A stretch of 34,320 nucleotides of DNA from Candidatus Hinthialibacter antarcticus (GTDB lineage: Bacteria > Hinthialibacterota > Hinthialibacteria > Hinthialibacterales > Hinthialibacteraceae): assembly GCA_030765645.1 (NCBI GenBank), contig JAVCCE010000014.1, forward strand, positions 1 through 34,320, given 5' to 3'. The position numbers were made by a program, and so were the translations under genes. This document shows, piece by piece, positions 2,892 through 34,320 of the stretch (the first letter of the stretch is position 1; every line of letters starts with the position of its first letter). The notes beneath the pieces were generated by a model. It did no database searches. It saw only the letters and a list, made by a program, of their open reading frames with translations, and had not been told where the DNA came from.

Positions 2892-3711
2892 CTTGCGCCT
2901 CATTTTTGAATTATCCGTTTGCGCCTTCAAAACGATTTAATAGATAGCAATCGCTCTAATTACAAACGGCTTGGTCAATCGTAAGTATCTGTGAGTAACT
3001 GATACTTTGCCTCATTGATCGGTTTTTATCAGTATAACTTGAATTTGCGCCTCAAAGTTAGCATTAAGGTAATTCTATCTCGCTAATTTCTTCTAATTAA
3101 GAGGGTTAAGTCTATTTATCCATGCTGAATAACATTCACTTCATTTAAGTTATTCACAATGTAACTTATGGATTTAGCGGAAGTTACACTAGACCAAACA
3201 TGTGGAATCTCCTGTGGATAATGTGTGAATAGAGCAAATGCTAAGTAAAAACGAGAATCAAGGGCGGTGTTACATAAGAATCAATTTTCTTAATGTTTCT
3301 TGTTTTAATATCTCAATTTACAGTAATTCAGGTAATTTTTTAGCGCTATTTTGATTGTTGACATCCTGTGAATAAAATCGGGAGGCGCCTTCATAAAGAT
3401 GTGTTACACCGCCAGATAGAGTCGCTCAAGGTCGCACTATATATTGTTTAAAACTTGATGATAAAATCAATATGTTGTATTTACCTCTTTTCATAATCCT
3501 AGCGTTGCGCACAATATAAATACGAATCAATTTTAAGACGAGTTGAAACGCAAAAGATTTAATGAGTGCTCTCAATAAGAAAGACGGACTTTTTGTCTTC
3601 ATACGAACGGGCAGGGTCAATTTCATTTCTTCATAAACTCTGTAAACTGTTTAAAACCTTGAAGCGTCATACGCCAGAGAAATCGAGACGCTGCCTGAAT
3701 TACACACTTGA
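2892..3711. other. AT-rich gene-free gap with DnaA-box-like 9-mers
   Basis: This 820-base gap between the divergent murI and sigma factor genes holds no convincing gene. It is clearly richer in A and T than its surroundings. It contains TTATTCACA (3150-3158), TGTGGATAA (3213-3221), the one-mismatch TGTGAATAG (3224-3232) and TGTGAATAA (3367-3375), all matching or nearly matching the TTATNCACA DnaA-box consensus on one strand or the other. A very AT-rich stretch lies at about 3280-3360 between the last two. It must also contain promoters for murI and the sigma operon, but I could not place them. Confidence 0.5.
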
Positions 3712-4359
3712 TTGAATGGAGTTGGAACCTTTTATTGTTCCAGTTCGACTAAACCATTGAACGAACAGAATGAACATACGCTGGCTTCTTCTGATGAAGA
3801 ACATGAAGTCATTCGCGCCTGTCAGGCAGGCGACGAAACTGCGTTTGAACAGTTATACCGCTTGTACAGCGGTCAAGTGTTTAGCATTGCGATGCGCGTG
3901 ACCGGGTCGCAACCCGAAGCCGAAGAAGTCACCCAGGAGGTGTTTGTTTCCGTTTATAAAAACATTCACCGCTTCGAGTTTCAATCAGCCTTCTCGACCT
4001 GGCTCTATCGCATCGTAGTTCGACGAGCGGCGGATTCGTTTCGCAAAGTAAAGAAACACATCATCAACCGCATCTCGATGGACTCAGACGAACACGCGCC
4101 GGTCTATTCGCTGGCCGACAAAGGCCACACGCCCCGCGAGGCGTTGGTTGATTCTCAAAACGAAAACACGCTGGAACGCGCGGTCCAAAAACTGGGAACC
4201 AAACATCGAACCATCGTCGTTCTGCGGTATGTACAAGATTTAAGCTATGAAGAAATCGCCCAGGTATTAGAATGCCGTATCGGTACCGTAAAGTCGCGAT
4301 TGAACCGGGCGCATAAACTGTTAAAGCAACACTTGGAAGAAATGGAATATAAAGTCTGA
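3712..4359 (+). CDS. ECF RNA polymerase sigma factor (RpoE-like)
   Basis: This is an extracytoplasmic-function sigma factor. Region 2 spans about residues 34-110 (FEQLYRLYSGQVF, the core-binding EAEEVTQEVFVSVYKN, STWLYRIVVRRAAD) and region 4 about 152-205 (LGTKHRTIVVLRYVQDLSYEEIA with the helix-turn-helix IGTVKSRLNRA). It would direct core polymerase to envelope-stress promoters and be held inactive by the product of the next gene. The start is uncertain: the frame opens after a TGA with TTG at 3712, no ATG occurs before residue 61, and TTG at 3757 is an alternative; neither has a clear ribosome binding site. It heads a three-gene set with an anti-sigma factor and an RseB-like protein. Confidence 0.93.
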   Translation: MNGVGTFYCSSSTKPLNEQNEHTLASSDEEHEVIRACQAGDETAFEQLYRLYSGQVFSIAMRVTGSQPEAEEVTQEVFVSVYKNIHRFEFQSAFSTWLYRIVVRRAADSFRKVKKHIINRISMDSDEHAPVYSLADKGHTPREALVDSQNENTLERAVQKLGTKHRTIVVLRYVQDLSYEEIAQVLECRIGTVKSRLNRAHKLLKQHLEEMEYKV

Positions 4360-4403
4360 TTGTATGCCGCACCCACGATACAATTATTGTAGGCGAAACG
4401 ATT

Positions 4404-4922
4404 ATGATAAACATTCAACCGGACCAAGACATGGAGTTCAACCGCCAAGCAGCGGTGCGCCGCGTTATGGACGGGGAAGCCACGCCCGACGAAATCGCAT
4501 TCGTTCAAAACCGGATCGAACGCTCCGAACTGTGGATGCGCTCTTCACAACGGGTAGAGGCGATGATGAACGACGCCCGCAACCTTCCCGAATTTACGCC
4601 GCCGGATCGCGTGTGGAAAAAAATTCGCTCCACCGCCCATTGTACGCAACCCGACAGCAGTTTGGCGGGGTGGTTCCAATTCTCATTCGTGGGCCGTCGC
4701 GCCTTACGTTTCGCGCCCGCCGCGATGGGGCTATTGCTCATCGTCGGATTCTGGTTCTCACAGCCCGGCGTGCAGTCGGTTTATGAAATTGTCGAAGTCA
4801 CCGACGAAAGCCGGTTCGGGATTGAAGCCGAAGCCTATATCGCCTACCACGACCTCTCAAATGAAAACGCCTCCGCCCGGGACGGTCTGATCGCCTATTA
4901 CACATACGGACTCTCTGAATAA
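4404..4922 (+). CDS. Membrane-bound anti-sigma factor (RseA-like)
   Basis: A 172-residue single-pass membrane protein directly after the ECF sigma gene. The N-terminal cytoplasmic part (AAVRRVMDGEATPDEIAFVQ...) resembles the anti-sigma zinc-finger/RseA-type helical domain but lacks the HxxxCxxC zinc motif. One hydrophobic segment (about residues 102-118, FAPAAMGLLLIVGFWF) is followed by an extracytoplasmic tail of about 50 residues. The architecture and gene order support a role in holding the sigma factor at the membrane. The stop and the next start overlap (TAATG), so translation of the RseB-like protein is probably coupled. Sequence similarity alone would be weak; context carries the call. 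Confidence 0.85.
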   Translation: MINIQPDQDMEFNRQAAVRRVMDGEATPDEIAFVQNRIERSELWMRSSQRVEAMMNDARNLPEFTPPDRVWKKIRSTAHCTQPDSSLAGWFQFSFVGRRALRFAPAAMGLLLIVGFWFSQPGVQSVYEIVEVTDESRFGIEAEAYIAYHDLSNENASARDGLIAYYTYGLSE

Positions 4923-5983
4923 TGCATGGACTGATTCGCCCCATTTTTGTGATTGTCTGCTTGGCGGCTTTGGTTGCGCCCAGCCACGCAGGATCAGACG
5001 GCAAGTACGTCAAAATTCTGCGGGAATCCATCCACGCTTCGCTGTCCGCCTCTTATGTCGGCGTGTGCACCTACAAACAAAAAACCGCTGACGGCGAGTG
5101 GGAAACTTGGCTCAACGTAAACCGGGGGTCGGAAGACCAGAAAAAAGTCGACATTATCTATCCCGAATCAATGAGCAGCGTGTCTATCGTCCAAACCGAA
5201 GGCGCGTTTTGGATGACGCCGCTCAATGAAAAAGACTTGAAAAAAATCCAGAACGCCATCAAGCCCATCGCCTGGTATCGCATCTTGAAAAAAGGCGAAG
5301 CGCTTGAGTTTGAAGACTTCGATCTTCTCACCCAAAATTACGTCATCAAAAAAAAGGGACACGAAACCATCGCCGAACGTCCGGTGTGGAAACTTGCTGT
5401 CTATTCAAATAAAGACACCAGGCCCTCAGCCGAAGTGTGGATTGATAAAGAAACCAAAGTTCAACTCAAATATATTCGTTACGACGCCAACCATGAACAA
5501 GTTGAAAAACTAAAATTCAACCAGATCGAATTTACCCAGCCGCCTAGCTCCGATGTGTTTACGCGCACGGGCCTCGAAAAAATTATCGATATCGCCCAGC
5601 AAGAAAAAAAACCGCCTGTCGCAGAAATCGCCTTTACGCCGCTAGCGCCGACTTTTTTGCCACCGGGCTTCAAACGAAAGTTTGTCCATAGTTGGGACGG
5701 CCACAACGGCCCGACCCTGCATGTGTTATACACGGACGGCTTTGCGGCGTTGTCGTTTTATCAACGCTTTCAAAATACAAAAGAAAAAGAATGGGCGGCG
5801 GCGAACGACATTGAATGCCCCAAAGTGAGGAAGTTTAATTTTCATGGGCGCGATTTATATATTCGCGACATTGATGATTTGCACATTGCCTCAATGGGAG
5901 ATATTCACCCCTGTGAGATCGCCGAATCGCTCTGCAGTCTTGAAGCCAAACCCGAGCTGGTCAAACATTTAGACGACGATTGA
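4922..5983 (+). CDS. MucB/RseB-like periplasmic sigma-regulatory protein
   Basis: A 353-residue exported protein. A signal peptide is clear (IFVIVCLAALVAPSHA, cleavage near residue 23). The N-terminal domain (about 30-220) is a LolA/RseB-like beta-sheet fold: SYVGVCTYKQ, DIIYPESMSSVSIVQTEG, RPVWKLAVYS and PSAEVWIDKETKVQLKY are the expected strands. The C-terminal part (FLPPGFK, LHVLYTDGFAALSFYQ) matches the MucB/RseB C-terminal domain. In RseB systems this protein binds the anti-sigma factor in the periplasm and senses mislocalised lipids or envelope proteins. Its start codon overlaps the anti-sigma stop by one base, completing a sigma/anti-sigma/RseB operon. No RseP or DegS gene is seen nearby. 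Confidence 0.88.
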   Translation: MHGLIRPIFVIVCLAALVAPSHAGSDGKYVKILRESIHASLSASYVGVCTYKQKTADGEWETWLNVNRGSEDQKKVDIIYPESMSSVSIVQTEGAFWMTPLNEKDLKKIQNAIKPIAWYRILKKGEALEFEDFDLLTQNYVIKKKGHETIAERPVWKLAVYSNKDTRPSAEVWIDKETKVQLKYIRYDANHEQVEKLKFNQIEFTQPPSSDVFTRTGLEKIIDIAQQEKKPPVAEIAFTPLAPTFLPPGFKRKFVHSWDGHNGPTLHVLYTDGFAALSFYQRFQNTKEKEWAAANDIECPKVRKFNFHGRDLYIRDIDDLHIASMGDIHPCEIAESLCSLEAKPELVKHLDDD

Positions 5984-6406
5984 ATATCCTTCATCCGGTA
6001 ATTGAGTACCGATGTTGATGGATCGCTTAATTTTGTTTAGGAAAACGTATTCCGGCATGTCAAAAATAGGCAAACCAAATCAGGCATGGGTGCAACTCTG
6101 GAAGCGCCTGTGCCTTTCGCAACGAAAGTGCAAATTATTTTGAGATGGCTTCAAGTATTTCTTGCGCCCCAAGAGGCCAATGTCATTGACTTAAGACTTT
6201 TAGCCCCCCTTTTTAAGGGGGGACGGCGCTGAAAGCGCCAGGGGGGATTTCAAAACAGCACAAACAAAGCGATACATTCAAACAATATTTCAAAGGCTGG
6301 CTTCATTTTATTCAGCCTGGGCTCGCCACCCCTTAAGTCAATCATATTGCCCAAGGGGCGGGGAATTAAACCCGAATTAGATTAAATCCAAATCAAAATA
6401 AAACCA
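5984..6406. other. Intergenic region filled by repeats
   Basis: No gene is seen. Most of the space is the MITE-like element at 6178-6349. Before it, GGGTGCAACTCTGG at 6088-6113 is a short repeat that recurs at 29811-29837 with the following GCGCCTGTGC. The region separates the convergent RseB-like and GGDEF-CopG genes. Confidence 0.6.
6178..6349 (+). mobile_element. MITE-like element, copy 1 (complete, 172 bp)
   Basis: The left terminal inverted repeat CAATGTCATTGACTTAAG (6178-6195) matches the right end CTTAAGTCAATCATATTG (6332-6349) in inverse, with two mismatches. Inside are a C-rich/G-rich block (CCCCCCTTTTTAAGGGGGG), a GGCGCTGAAAGCGCC hairpin and the core AACAGCACAAACAAAGCG, all shared with the copies at 19940-20089 and 27415-27617. 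There is no coding capacity, as expected for a non-autonomous element. I did not see a clean target-site duplication. Confidence 0.75.
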
Positions 6407-7087
6407 TTAACTCTCGATCGGCTTGGGCGCATGTTTCGCCAACACGTCGTCGACCGCTTCTCGGATGACCGAGTCAAGCGTACGCCCTTCATATTGGACT
6501 AATTCGGTGAGCATTTCGAGTTGAATGGACGTTAATTGAACCGTGTTGGCCTCATGCGAGGGGGGTTCGATAAAACAAATTTGGCTCTTGCCTTTTTGTT
6601 GCGCTAAATAGACCGCCTCCCGAAGCCCGCGAATGAGTTGACCGCGATGACTGGCGTCGTCAGGAAACCGCCCGGCGGCGACGCTCATGGTGATATGAAT
6701 TTTAGGACGGGTGCGAATCGCATCAGCCATTGCGCAAAAACGCCGCTGCAATTCTTCGCCAAAGCGCGCGGCCTGTTCACGGTCAACGCTTGGCGCAACC
6801 AATAGAAATTCATTCACGCCGATGCAATCAATAAACACATCTTCGGGCGTCTGTTCCATCAACACGCCCAGGAGGCCGGAAGCCGCTTTTTTGAGCGCTT
6901 CGGGTTTGCGTTGCGCAAGCTCGGCGAACGAATCAATACAACAAAGAAAAAATGTAATAGATTGCTCTTCGTCCGCCGCCGAAGACAACAGGCGGTCAAG
7001 CGTCGCAGCGCTTTCGTCTTCATTCAAGCCGAGCGCAGCGTGCAGCAAATCAGTCACAGATTTAGAAAAAATCAGCTGAGCGCCCAC
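6407..7087 (-). CDS. Degenerate GGDEF-like domain fused to a CopG-type ribbon-helix-helix
   Basis: The 226-residue protein has a GGDEF-type fold over about residues 40-172: SITFFLCCIDSF, the active-site hairpin position reads CIGVNEFLLVAP (89-99) instead of GG(D/E)EF, and the family's closing AVYLAQQKGKSQICF is at 158-172. The loss of both glycines and of an RxxD inhibitory site argues against cyclase activity. Residues 183-218 (VQLTSIQLEMLTELV...SVIREAVDDVLAKH) look like a ribbon-helix-helix DNA-binding domain. A GTG start at 7087 is chosen because GGAGG lies 7 bases upstream; no ATG fits. A perfect 6+3+6 palindrome at 7159-7173, 72 bases upstream, is a possible operator. The joint architecture is unusual; function is unknown. 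Confidence 0.8.
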   Translation of the reverse strand: MGAQLIFSKSVTDLLHAALGLNEDESAATLDRLLSSAADEEQSITFFLCCIDSFAELAQRKPEALKKAASGLLGVLMEQTPEDVFIDCIGVNEFLLVAPSVDREQAARFGEELQRRFCAMADAIRTRPKIHITMSVAAGRFPDDASHRGQLIRGLREAVYLAQQKGKSQICFIEPPSHEANTVQLTSIQLEMLTELVQYEGRTLDSVIREAVDDVLAKHAPKPIES

Positions 7088-7158
7088 AGGGTGCCTCCAA
7101 AGACAAAATCAAAATATTCAATTACTCGATTCAGTATATGCTTAGATGATAAATATTA

Positions 7159-7173
7159 AACACTTGCAGTGTT
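7159..7173. promoter_or_regulatory. Palindrome AACACT-TGC-AGTGTT, possible operator
   Basis: A perfect 6-base inverted repeat with a 3-base spacer lies in the AT-rich gap between the divergent GGDEF-CopG gene and the small Cys-protein gene. Its size suits a dimeric repressor, and the CopG-type domain encoded next door is one candidate. This is inference from position and symmetry only. Confidence 0.35.
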
Positions 7174-7350
7174 AAATTATGATAAGGGCGTAATGAAATA
7201 CTGTATCGTAATGAAGCAGCATTTCATTATATTCGAGGTTTGGTTGTCGCTGAAAGAGAACGCCATTTTATCATAAAAAATATTCGGAGTTCTGGCGGAT
7301 AGGGCAAAACACCGATATGCTATCGTCGATCCATTTTCATGAGGGTGAAG

Positions 7351-7605
7351 ATGAAGTTTCACGAGCGGTTAAAACAAACCCGAAAACGACGATACGGCGC
7401 CAAAGAAGGCGATGAAGAAGAAGACCCAAAGCCCAAAGGCCCGAATTGTCACAATTGCGTCAGTTTTGAAATTACTTGGGATTTTAAATTCCCCTACGGC
7501 TGCAAAGCAATGGGCTTCAAAACCCGAAAAATTCCTACCATGGAAGTGTATGAAGCCTCCGGCTTTCATTGCCAGAAGTTTCAACCCAAAAATAAAAAAA
7601 AGTAA
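7351..7605 (+). CDS. Small conserved four-cysteine protein
   Basis: This encodes 84 residues from the ATG at 7351, which has GAGG 6 bases upstream; an ATG at 7339 would add four residues and lacks such a site. After a basic/acidic N-terminus come CHNCVSFEITWDFKFPYGC and KIPTMEVYEASGFHCQKF. I recall short bacterial proteins with the same CxxC...TWD...PYGCKA...SG..CQ.F pattern, often labelled uracil-DNA glycosylase although they are far too short for that enzyme. Four conserved cysteines suggest a metal-binding knuckle. It ends 22 bases before the convergent pdxH stop. Role unknown. Confidence 0.8.
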   Translation: MKFHERLKQTRKRRYGAKEGDEEEDPKPKGPNCHNCVSFEITWDFKFPYGCKAMGFKTRKIPTMEVYEASGFHCQKFQPKNKKK

Positions 7606-9986: not shown

Positions 9987-11024
9987 TTAGTTCAATATCT
10001 GGTAGAGGGTGTTGCGTTTTTTGGGGGTGAAGCCAGCGTCTTCGACCAGTTTGCAGACTTCTTTTTCATTGCTGCAATTGTGGATGCCAGTGGCGGCGAC
10101 CACGTTTTCTTCCATCATGGTTCCGCCCATGTCGTTGGCGCCAAAGAACAGCGCCATCTGCCCAACCTGTTTGCCCTGGGTGATGAACGACGCCTGCACG
10201 TTGGGCACGTTGTCGAGATACATGCGCGAAATCGCCAGCGTCTTTAGATAATCGACGGCGCCGGATTCGGGCACGTCTTCCATGTCGGTGTTGGAGCCTT
10301 GAAACGTCCAGGGAATAAACGCGGTGAATCCGCCGGTGCGGTCTTGTAATTCGCGAATGTGGTTGAAATGTTCGACCCGCTCTTCGATGGTTTCAATGTG
10401 GCCGAACATCATGGTCGCGGTGGTGCGCATTCCTAATTTGTGCGCTTCTTCGTGAACGTCGAGCCATTCCTGGGTGAGGCATTTTCCCTTGGTGATTTTT
10501 TTACGCACCCGGTCGCTGAGAATTTCCGCCCCGCCGCCGGGGATGGTGTCCAGCCCGGCTTCTTGCAGCTGCGCCAACACCTGCGCGATGGGCATCTTAT
10601 ATTTTTTGTGAAAGAAATAAATTTCCGGCGCGGAAAACGAGTGAAGGTCTACTTTGAATTTCGATTTGATTTCGCGTAATAGGTTCGTATAAAAATCGAA
10701 CGGCAATTTGGGATGCAGTCCGCCTTGCATCAAAATCTGGGTTCCGCCGACATCGACTACTTCTTGAATTTTTTGCAGGATTTCATCTATCGGCAAGACA
10801 TAGCCGTCGTCTTGATTAACGGTGCGATAAAACGCGCAGAAGTCGCAGGTGGCGGCGCACACGTTTGAGTAATTGACGTTGCGGTCAACGACATAGGTTA
10901 CGATCTCCGGCGCGGCGATGGTCATGCGCATTTCATGGGCGCGTTCGCCCAGAGCCATCAGGTCGTTTTGTTGAAACAAATTGACGGCGTCGTCGAATGA
11001 AAGTCGGTTGTTAGGCTTAATCAT
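9987..11024 (-). CDS. mqnC: Cyclic dehypoxanthinyl futalosine synthase MqnC
   Basis: MqnC is the radical SAM enzyme that cyclises dehypoxanthine futalosine in the futalosine route to menaquinone. The 345-residue length fits. The 4Fe-4S ligands are in NVCAATCDFCAFYR (Cys 56, 60, 63). Other family hallmarks are ILMQGGLHPKLPFDFY, HSFSAPEI, DTIPGGGAEILSDRVR, TATMMFGHIET and the C-terminal GKQVGQMALFFGANDMGGTMMEENVVAATG, which separates MqnC from MqnE. The other mqn genes are not in the window. The ATG at 11024 overlaps the end of the upstream TPR lipoprotein gene by 8 bases, so translation is probably coupled. Its presence implies a respiratory organism using menaquinone. Confidence 0.95.
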   Translation of the reverse strand: MIKPNNRLSFDDAVNLFQQNDLMALGERAHEMRMTIAAPEIVTYVVDRNVNYSNVCAATCDFCAFYRTVNQDDGYVLPIDEILQKIQEVVDVGGTQILMQGGLHPKLPFDFYTNLLREIKSKFKVDLHSFSAPEIYFFHKKYKMPIAQVLAQLQEAGLDTIPGGGAEILSDRVRKKITKGKCLTQEWLDVHEEAHKLGMRTTATMMFGHIETIEERVEHFNHIRELQDRTGGFTAFIPWTFQGSNTDMEDVPESGAVDYLKTLAISRMYLDNVPNVQASFITQGKQVGQMALFFGANDMGGTMMEENVVAATGIHNCSNEKEVCKLVEDAGFTPKKRNTLYQILN

Positions 11025-11472
11025 TGTTTGCGGTTTCTGTTAACTGTTCGGCGGCAATTCGTCGATGCAGGTTTAACATTTCAATTTTTACTTCTTCTTT
11101 TTGTAGTTTAAACTCGGAATCAATAAATGCCAGGATCAGGCGGTTGGCGGCTTCAGCAAAATCACCTTGTTCGGCTGCTTGTTTTCCTGCGGTGAGGTTG
11201 GCGTCGCGGTCCCAGGGGCGATACTTGAGCAGCTCGCGGCTCCAGCGCGCGGCTTCGTCGGTCGCGCCCGAAACCAGAGCGCACACCGCCATGCCTTTGA
11301 TGGCGTCGACGTCGTATTTATTTTTCTGGAGTAATGTTTGATAGCCCGCCTGGGCGCTGTGTGCGTCGCCTGCTTTAAGCGCGGCCTGAGCGCTGCTCAA
11401 CACCGCTTCCCGGTTGTCTGAACAGGAAACAGTGAGGAGAGTAAGAACAAGACAAAGAGTGAGTATTCGCAT
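11017..11472 (-). CDS. Small TPR-like lipoprotein
   Basis: From the ATG at 11472 this encodes 151 residues. The signal sequence MRILTLCLVLTLLTVSCSD ends in a lipobox (TVSC), so it should be a lipoprotein. The rest is helical with tetratricopeptide-like pairs (VLSSAQAALKAGDAHSAQAGY, NLTAGKQAAEQGDFAEAANRLI). The frame stays open back to 11541, but that extension translates a REP-like palindrome (HPNPLPEGEG) and is not part of the gene. No good ribosome site precedes the ATG. It overlaps mqnC by 8 bases; a functional link to menaquinone synthesis is not evident. Probably a scaffold or assembly lipoprotein. Confidence 0.75.
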   Translation of the reverse strand: MRILTLCLVLTLLTVSCSDNREAVLSSAQAALKAGDAHSAQAGYQTLLQKNKYDVDAIKGMAVCALVSGATDEAARWSRELLKYRPWDRDANLTAGKQAAEQGDFAEAANRLILAFIDSEFKLQKEEVKIEMLNLHRRIAAEQLTETANND

Positions 11473-11495
11473 GAGGTTTTTGAACGCGCGGTTGG

Positions 11496-11530
11496 CTCCC
11501 TCTCCCTCTGGGAGAGGGTTGGGGTGAGGG
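11496..11530 (+). repeat. REP-like palindrome (family B)
   Basis: CTCCCTCTGGGAGAGGG followed by TTGGGGTGAGGG is an imperfect hairpin element. Close copies occur at 21020-21054, 24033-24064, 24135-24170, 24236-24271, 33928-33963 and, inverted, 33995-34031. All are between genes, and they create false reading frames containing PLPEGEG. Confidence 0.8.
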
Positions 11531-11619
11531 AATACATCCAATCACGATTGTCAGATTTTTTATTTCTTTTTAAGAAGTTAGCGATCCGCTTTCAGTCGGC
11601 TAGGGGTAGCGTTTTTTTG

Positions 11620-23764: not shown

Positions 23765-24387
23765 TTCGTGTTGTACCTATCTACGTTTTCTTAACTCAAA
23801 CCTAGTCGACATCTATCGCTGAGCCGTTCCGGCGCACTGAGACTAAGTGAATCACACGCTCGGCGTTTAGCAGCCAATTTGTAATTGAGTTTTGTTATTT
23901 TCGTTCTTCCTTGAATGCTTTCTTAATTCATCACCACATCAATCGCTGAGCGCTTTGCACGCGCTGAGACTGTGCTAAATCCAAGGTAGGGTGGGCTCGC
24001 GAAGCAGCCCACCGAGCAATGTTTTAATTCGTACTCTCCCCCTGGGAGAGAACCAGGGCGAGAGTTTTTTCTGGTGGGTTAAGAACCCACCCTACAATCG
24101 ACCAAGATACTTCCGCTCGCTAAGCGCCAACCTACCCCTTCTCCCTCTGGGAGAGGGTTGGGATGAGGGGCAGTTGAAATTGGTGGGTTAAGAACCCACC
24201 CTACAATCGCTGCATCTATCGCTAAGCGCCAACCTACCCCTTCTCCCTCTGGGAGAAGGTTGGGATGAGGGCAATCAAAAACGAGACCTGCCTGCCGTAG
24301 GCAGATTGCTTCGCTGCGCTCGAAATGACATGAACAGACATTTTCCCTTATATACAATAATCGGATATTACTGGAATGAGTTAAGTT
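23765..24387. other. Intergenic region dominated by alternating palindromes
   Basis: No gene is seen. Bases 23765-23980 hold no recognisable element beyond possible promoter DNA for the PilZ gene. Bases 23985-24271 are the alternating family A and B palindrome array listed separately. The PLPEGEG-containing reading frames here are artefacts of those repeats. Confidence 0.65.
23985..24271. repeat. Alternating array of family A and B palindromes
   Basis: Order: A (23985-24013), B (24033-24064), A (24072-24095), B (24135-24170), A (24181-24204), B (24236-24271). The last two A-B pairs form a direct tandem repeat of about 109 and 95 bases that also shares the linkers CTACAATCG and CGCTAAGCGCCAACCTACCC. 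A-family hairpins have GGTGGGTT/AACCCACC arms; B-family have CTCCCTCTGGGAGAGGG. Confidence 0.8.
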
Positions 24388-33768: not shown

Positions 33769-34320
33769 AAGCGTCCCTCAACCAAATAGAATCATATCAG
33801 AAACCGCCCATTGACGGTCATTATTAACTATCGTCAATAAAAATAGAGAGTTAAGAAGAAAATTGGGGAGCAAACCAGGAAATGGCTGGCGCGGTGAGGT
33901 ATTACGGTCAGCAGCGCGACAATGTAGTCCCTTCTCCCTCTGGGAGAAGGCTAGGATGAGGGTTTAATTTGTGCATTACAAAAACGATATCTGAACCCTC
34001 ACCCCAACCCTCTCCCAGTGGGGAGAGGGAGCAGGCGTGTGCGTTTATGGGGGGGTGGCGCTGCAAACGCCGGGGGGATTCGGGCGCAACACCCTTTCTT
34101 TTCATGCGGCTCACCAGGAGGTTCGCCCTCCCCACATCATTCGAAATATTGGTGGGTTATTACCTGCCGTTCATGATGATTGAAACATTGCAGGGTGGGC
34201 TGCTTCGCGAGCCCACCCTTGTATCTTTCTTGTAAGTTGAATAGAAAAAGACGAAGCCTCGGGATGAGAGTACACCCACGAGGCTTTGTGAACGGCAGAT
34301 CGTCCCACCCTGGGTCCGTC
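33769..34320. other. Intergenic region with repeats at the window edge
   Basis: No gene is supported. It holds an AT-rich stretch (33790-33870) likely containing the promoter of the aminotransferase operon, family B palindromes at 33928-33963 and inverted at 33995-34031, a MITE-body fragment near 34046-34080, a family A palindrome at 34191-34219, and a terminator-like hairpin at 34245-34287. Confidence 0.65.
34245..34287 (-). terminator. Terminator for a leftward gene beyond the window
   Basis: AAGCCTCG (34254-34261) pairs perfectly with CGAGGCTT (34279-34286). On the minus strand the stem is followed by CGTCTTTTTC, so it would end a transcript coming from the right, outside the window. Confidence 0.6.

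Follow-up and report, generated by a model that had tools for sequence, protein, structure and literature searches.

The stretch of 34,320 nucleotides of Candidatus Hinthialibacter antarcticus DNA that was analysed here (the window) encodes a 226-aa protein in which a degenerate GGDEF-like domain precedes a C-terminal ribbon-helix-helix (RHH) domain, and this domain make-up is firm. Proteins of the same order, referred to below as the GGDEF-RHH family, were found in three bacterial phyla, designated clade A (the phylum of the window), clade B (a second phylum) and clade C (a third phylum). Many GGDEF domains are degenerate, often with obscure roles; here a whole family pairs such a domain with one of DNA-binding type. 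A 22-bp target site is predicted for it, as is a target gene in one of the phyla. Computation gave the domain make-up, the degeneracy, the family, the leuC linkage and the dyad; DNA binding, autoregulation, repression and a ligand are inferred. With moderate confidence, we propose that the members of the family are autoregulating DNA-binding regulators, which in clades B and C are perhaps nucleotide-responsive. The window protein itself is likely to be a regulator. The features of its gene are as follows.

6407..7087, minus strand: gene of the 226-aa GGDEF-like/RHH protein, GTG start, stop included (open reading frame and full-length relatives)
7094..7098, minus strand: Shine-Dalgarno-like GGAGG, 6 nt 5′ of the GTG (read from the sequence)
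6569..7003, minus strand: GGDEF-like domain, residues 29-173 (PF00990, AF2 model and VIA-align)
6806..6820, minus strand: GVNEF in place of GG[DE]EF, residues 90-94 (alignment with two canonical GGEEF proteins)
6434..6544, minus strand: RHH domain, residues 182-218 (AF2 helices and hhalign to the clade B/C tails; its own Pfam match is sub-threshold)
Parts of the RHH domain, minus strand: ribbon at about residues 182-186, helices at residues 187-199 and 204-218 (AF2 helices)

Full-length relatives of the window protein occur in six further genomes within the phylum. Its start lies where these six relatives align at MG (LG from a TTG in one of them), the six starts having been picked within this analysis. 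The initial annotation had read the N-terminal part as GGDEF-like, and the Pfam scan bore this out, as PF00990 matched residues 29-168 with an E-value of 2.2e-6 and 28.0 bits, above the gathering score of 23.8 bits. An AF2 monomer model built from an input of three sequences (mean pLDDT 65.4, pTM 0.61) contained a GGDEF fold, and its best VIA-align match was the GGDEF domain of DosC (4zve; Z 18.0, rmsd 2.6 over 156 residues). The fold-search matches listed for the model spanned residues 7-177 and barely covered the tail, and the ribbon strand was not formed in the monomer model.

The tail had been assigned to the RHH fold in the same annotation, which proposed profile searches of both parts of the protein. 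The GGDEF part exceeded its cut-off; the window tail on its own stayed below those of the RHH families, and it was the relatives that passed. Specifically, the whole window protein gave Antitox_RHH with an E-value of 0.031, below the cut-off, and the isolated tail gave Antitox_RHH (E 0.0038) and RHH_3 (E 0.02), both sub-threshold; under the refuting condition of the annotation, these matches alone would have counted as weak. The RHH_3 gathering score of 21.6 was exceeded in three of six scanned clade B/C members (26.5, 28.9 and 23.3) and in one of three members of the second family of the window's order (genome G007, 23.4), and hhalign matched the clade A tails to the clade B/C tails (97.4%, E 1.4e-11), so that by sequence comparison the two sets of tails are homologous. 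The tail is classed as an RHH domain because relatives pass the RHH_3 cut-off and the tails match profile to profile. PDB sequence searches with the tail profiles returned no strong RHH match: the clade A profile hit k-cTRP5 best (E 7.2e-7 over five repeats) and the antidote 5ceg at E 0.88, and the clade B/C profile gave a single match, an RNA helicase, at E 0.77. A whole-protein profile reached the CopG-type entries 7by2 (E 0.53) and 6x0a (E 0.84). Mean pairwise identity was much higher in the RHH than in the GGDEF part in clade B (0.79 versus 0.48) and clade C (0.76 versus 0.56), hardly better in clade A (0.40 versus 0.33), and 0.30 versus 0.33 in the window's own family; ribbon identity between clades A and B was only 0.19.

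To define the spread of the family, genomes were scanned with a profile of the seven full-length proteins of the window's phylum, the window protein included (A1), and with a wider profile of 17 rows (A6). Positive genomes, each with one above-threshold match, made up 7 of 14 in clade A (A1), 24 of 68 in the phylum of clade B (A6) and 14 of 103 in that of clade C (A6). The A1 profile also matched clade B and C members as far as the RHH domain, its counts being 16 of 68 in the former phylum and 4 of 103 in the latter, where three matches reached the RHH. In wider samples of 386 (A1), 389 and 385 (A6) genomes, which overlap and for which at most seven candidates were scored per genome, the matches listed at full length belonged to these three phyla, G183 aside. 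The G183 match, which extends to profile position 218, was rejected: it runs through a stop, and the open reading frame encodes an ordinary GGDEF protein. Among the matches listed for the 389-genome sample, those of the family scored at least 167 bits and ended at profile position 218-219, whereas other GGDEF domains scored at most 146 bits and ended at 168-195. No relative was found in the viral contigs scanned. Within clade A, the relatives are 21-46% identical to the window protein and are full length in seven genomes of two families, the window's included.

In a tree of GGDEF domains, a branch with support 95/92 separated 34 members from 30 ordinary GGDEF domains. The tree covered 34 of 44 members, with ten left out, and 30 of 45 ordinary domains, all picked for an intact motif; flags were raised for clade A, whose branches are long, and for a bootstrap that had not settled. 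A single fusion in the common ancestor of the GGDEF-RHH proteins would be the simplest reading of this tree. One broken gene copy was observed (G483, locus L106, 6116-6939, minus strand), split into two pieces by an internal stop; the copy in a close relative, G484, is free of stops as far as its contig extends.

The signature of the window protein had been noted as GVNEF, and the RxxD site as absent. Both observations hold when the protein is aligned with two canonical GGEEF proteins, of which one is encoded in the window genome itself: no RxxD precedes the GVNEF loop, and the I-site columns read P..V. The columns that we take, from PleD, to be those of the metal-binding Asp and of the Asn hold Cys and Ala in the window protein. 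Across the family, GG[DE]EF was intact in 0 of 44 aligned members and RxxD was present in 0 of 44, the table holding the 45 members found minus the broken G483 copy, excluded for its internal stop and fragments. The manner of degeneration differs by clade. The metal Asp is retained in 24/24 and the Asn in 23/24 members of clade B, where the loop reads GGDA- in all 24, with Ala replacing Glu; both residues are retained in 13/13 members of clade C, in which the loop is one residue short in all 13; neither is present in any of the seven members of clade A, the window protein among them. Since the metal Asp and Asn are kept in clades B and C and lost in clade A, a guanine-nucleotide pocket may persist in the former two and can hardly persist in the window protein. 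A response to a nucleotide, one of the two options first suggested, fits clades B and C and does not fit the window protein.

The neighbourhood of the clade B genes pointed to a possible target. Of 24 loci, 23 have leuC no more than 3.2 kb downstream and in the same orientation, and the contig of the remaining one stops 141 bp past the GGDEF-RHH gene; leuC was identified by TIGR00170 for the G441 copy and by BLAST for the others. Between the two genes there is nothing, a methyladenine glycosylase gene, a methyltransferase gene, or others. An unbiased count of 5-mer dyads revealed TACAT-N10-ATGTA in 17 of 24 clade B upstream regions, whereas in ten shuffles of these regions no dyad occurred in more than 2. 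When extended to ATACATA-N8-TATGTAT, a consensus derived from the same clade B sequences that it scores, the dyad was present (at least 12 of 14 positions) upstream of 21/24 genes versus 0/602 control windows taken from the same loci, and the 100 bp 5′ of the sites showed no clear mutual similarity (276 pairs). No other site in the fetched DNA of the 24 loci reached 12, so that a leuC standing apart from the gene has no site of its own there; the dyad goes with the GGDEF-RHH gene and not with leuC, even where genes separate the two. TTGACA lies inside the dyad in 9 of the 24 best sites. If this TTGACA is a −35 box, protein on the dyad would cover it, which suggests autorepression; the repressor role is putative and drawn from the position of the dyad. 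The conserved family and the clade B dyad upstream of the gene lend support to the DNA-binding regulator put forward in the initial annotation.

In clade C, sites of at least 12/14 were scored upstream of 8 of 12 genes (G484 being excluded for its contig end) versus 1 of 341 control windows. We consider this dyad doubtful because the upstream regions are AT-rich, the unbiased count gave AT-repeat dyads only (7/13), a number of the scored sites turned out to be direct repeats or AT runs, and some overlap the ribosome-binding site. In clade A the dyad was found upstream of 0 of 7 genes, the best score being 9/14.

At the window locus, two further features were marked upstream of the gene.

−35 at 7175-7170 and −10 at 7151-7146, minus strand: promoter-like site of the window gene (from the sequence)
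7155..7177, no strand assigned: palindrome ATTTAACACT-GCA-AGTGTTTAAT, over the promoter-like −35, a weak candidate operator

At up to one mismatch, the palindrome occurs nowhere else in the genome, and one as good arose in about 10-15% of shuffles (0.095 and 0.146). When two mismatches were allowed, the pattern gave 2 forward matches and 1 reverse match in its own genome: 7155-7177 was matched on either strand, and the remaining match, with 2 mismatches, lay elsewhere. A control with the pattern written backwards returned 4 and 6, so the pattern is not special at this level. It was not found upstream of the genes of the six relatives, and as an operator of the window gene it is a weak candidate. 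The clade B dyad scored 9/14 at best upstream of the window gene; with up to three mismatches, it had one match in the window (3152-3173; 0.44 expected by chance). A leuC linkage was considered for the window gene and rejected, as leuC lies on contig C15 and the gene on C14, and the 16 kb around leuC in this genome held no dyad of 11/14 or better.

The window gene is flanked by a MucB/RseB-like gene, an 88-aa open reading frame and a pyridoxamine-phosphate oxidase gene. The 88-aa frame (7339-7605, plus strand) is divergent from the window gene and encodes four Cys residues, with no Pfam match. An ECF sigma factor gene, a 172-aa open reading frame and the MucB/RseB-like gene stand in a row at 3712-5983 (plus strand), resembling an envelope stress operon of the sigma-E type; the 172-aa product, which had no Pfam match, is perhaps an anti-sigma factor. 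Between the MucB-like gene and the window gene, positions 6190-6260 carry inverted repeats and C/G runs (agcccccctttttaagggggg, then ggcgctgaaagcgcc), which may be a small repeat element or a terminator. Elsewhere in the window, three open reading frames (11017-11541, minus strand; 24079-24357, minus strand; 33969-34235, plus strand) encode near their starts peptides resembling PHPNPLPEGEG, PHPNLLPEGEG and PSPQPSPSGER, which gives the impression of translation through a short interspersed repeat. The neighbours of GGDEF-RHH genes change between lineages. In three other clade A loci (L061, L062 and L063, of G004, G005 and G003), a gene encoding radical SAM, SPASM and C-terminal SEC-C domains lies upstream on the same strand, the G004 copy being an anaerobic sulfatase maturase (TIGR03942); no sulfatase maturase gene lies upstream at the window locus.

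These data allow a different account of clade A, namely that its protein is decaying or repurposed, with the RHH helices retained for dimerisation, a ribbon that has ceased to read DNA, and a role for the whole as a protein-binding scaffold. In clade A, the metal Asp, the Asn, the GGDEF loop and the ribbon conserved in clades B and C are gone, none of its seven genes keeps the dyad, and its gene neighbours vary by lineage. However, retention of the full length in seven genomes of two families at such low identity argues for use, the G007 tail lies above the RHH_3 cut-off, and a palindrome covers the promoter-like site of the window gene. We hold this account to be possible but somewhat unlikely.

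For clade B, the dyad might be bound by another regulator, the RHH tail doing something else, since a dyad at a promoter is usable by any repressor. The dyad nevertheless precedes the GGDEF-RHH gene even when other genes intervene before leuC, and clade A, in which the ribbon is changed, is without it, and we regard such a division of roles as improbable.

Still less probable is that the family consists of diguanylate cyclases, active or residual, or of c-di-GMP receptors. Degenerate proteins with AGDEF and SGDEF loops that possess cyclase activity exist (PMC3974145, consulted in part); in addition, the metal Asp is kept in clades B and C, and the Asn nearly always. A gene of one BLAST family also stands divergent from the GGDEF-RHH gene at three clade B loci (L101, L099 and L097), and Pfam confirmed PilZ in two of these genes and not in the third, hinting at a tie to c-di-GMP. 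Against this stand the lack of both GG[DE]EF and RxxD in all 44 members, the Glu-to-Ala change throughout clade B, the shortened loop throughout clade C and the loss of the metal Asp throughout clade A; as far as the sequences tell, none of the members resembles a working cyclase. An RHH antitoxin of a toxin-antitoxin pair, to which the presence of Antitox_RHH and CopG_antitoxin among the weak Pfam matches would point, is highly implausible, given that no recognisable toxin gene adjoins the window gene in gene lists that began at 60-100 aa, a size that smaller toxin frames could escape, and that the identified neighbours in other loci are leuC, the sulfatase maturase gene and others.

Returning to the autoregulating DNA-binding regulator that we favour, its mechanism might run as follows. 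The RHH tail would dimerise and bind a palindrome at the promoter of the gene that encodes it; in clade B, this same site would perhaps also serve leuC downstream. The GGDEF domain would make no c-di-GMP and would act instead as a dimerisation and input module that alters DNA binding. Its probable ligand in clades B and C is GTP or a related guanine nucleotide, which would be bound and left uncyclised. For the clade of the window, in which both the nucleotide site and the ribbon have changed, the input and the target site would have to be different, or DNA binding may have been lost. Because the metal Asp and Asn are both gone from the window protein, a partner or another ligand is a likelier input for it than a nucleotide. 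A more far-reaching version, which we offer tentatively, is that of a nutrient-sensing family whose GGDEF domain, itself non-cyclising, would respond to GTP or (p)ppGpp and thereby switch an RHH repressor of its own gene and, in one phylum, of leuC (with leuD), the window's clade having swapped both the input and the DNA site. If true, this would link a non-catalytic GGDEF domain to the synthesis of amino acids, and not to biofilm or motility. The family would in any case provide a test case for whether a non-catalytic GGDEF domain can sense a nucleotide for transcription.

Several known systems resemble the GGDEF-RHH family in part. In NikR, the RHH is N-terminal and a nickel domain forms the C-terminal part; like the GGDEF-RHH proteins, NikR combines an RHH with a separate sensing domain that controls DNA binding, and it differs in that their RHH is C-terminal and is joined to a GGDEF domain. 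In PdeA/CC3396, a non-cyclising degenerate GGDEF domain binds GTP and regulates its partner EAL phosphodiesterase, whereas the output in the present family is a domain of DNA-binding type. The initial annotation knew of no described protein of this order, and our literature search agreed, as the titles and abstract openings of open-licence papers contained no description of a GGDEF and RHH fusion; the RHH mentioned in two reviews, in the parts consulted, is that of CdbA. In contrast to the GGDEF-RHH proteins, CdbA of Myxococcus xanthus is a small protein in which c-di-GMP is bound by the RHH regions, according to the sections consulted (PMC7156744). CodY is described, in the part of the source used here, as a sensor of GTP and branched-chain amino acids (PMC5314169). 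It offers a functional parallel only, on the condition that clade B senses GTP and controls leuC, the comparison leaving aside kinship in sequence or fold; were the nutrient-sensing version true, a CodY-like job would be done by an unrelated domain pair.

The closest precedent is found among PucR-type regulators. For the window protein, membership of the PucR/CdaR group was considered and set aside, as PF17853 and PF13556 (HTH_30) were not listed for it up to an E-value of 10, a range in which the HMMER filters drop most weak matches. A degenerate GGDEF domain beside a DNA-binding domain is, as a general principle, already known from these regulators, for example MabR (Rv2242), which like the window's family has a GGDEF-fold domain without catalytic or inhibitory motifs adjoining a DNA-binding domain, and which, in the portion of the report consulted, forms dimers and tetramers and has an effector not identified there (PMC11617747). 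The two differ in their output, which in MabR is the PucR C-terminal helix-turn-helix (PF17853, PF13556; PMC11617747, as far as consulted) and in the GGDEF-RHH family is an RHH domain attached to a GGDEF part that matches PF00990.
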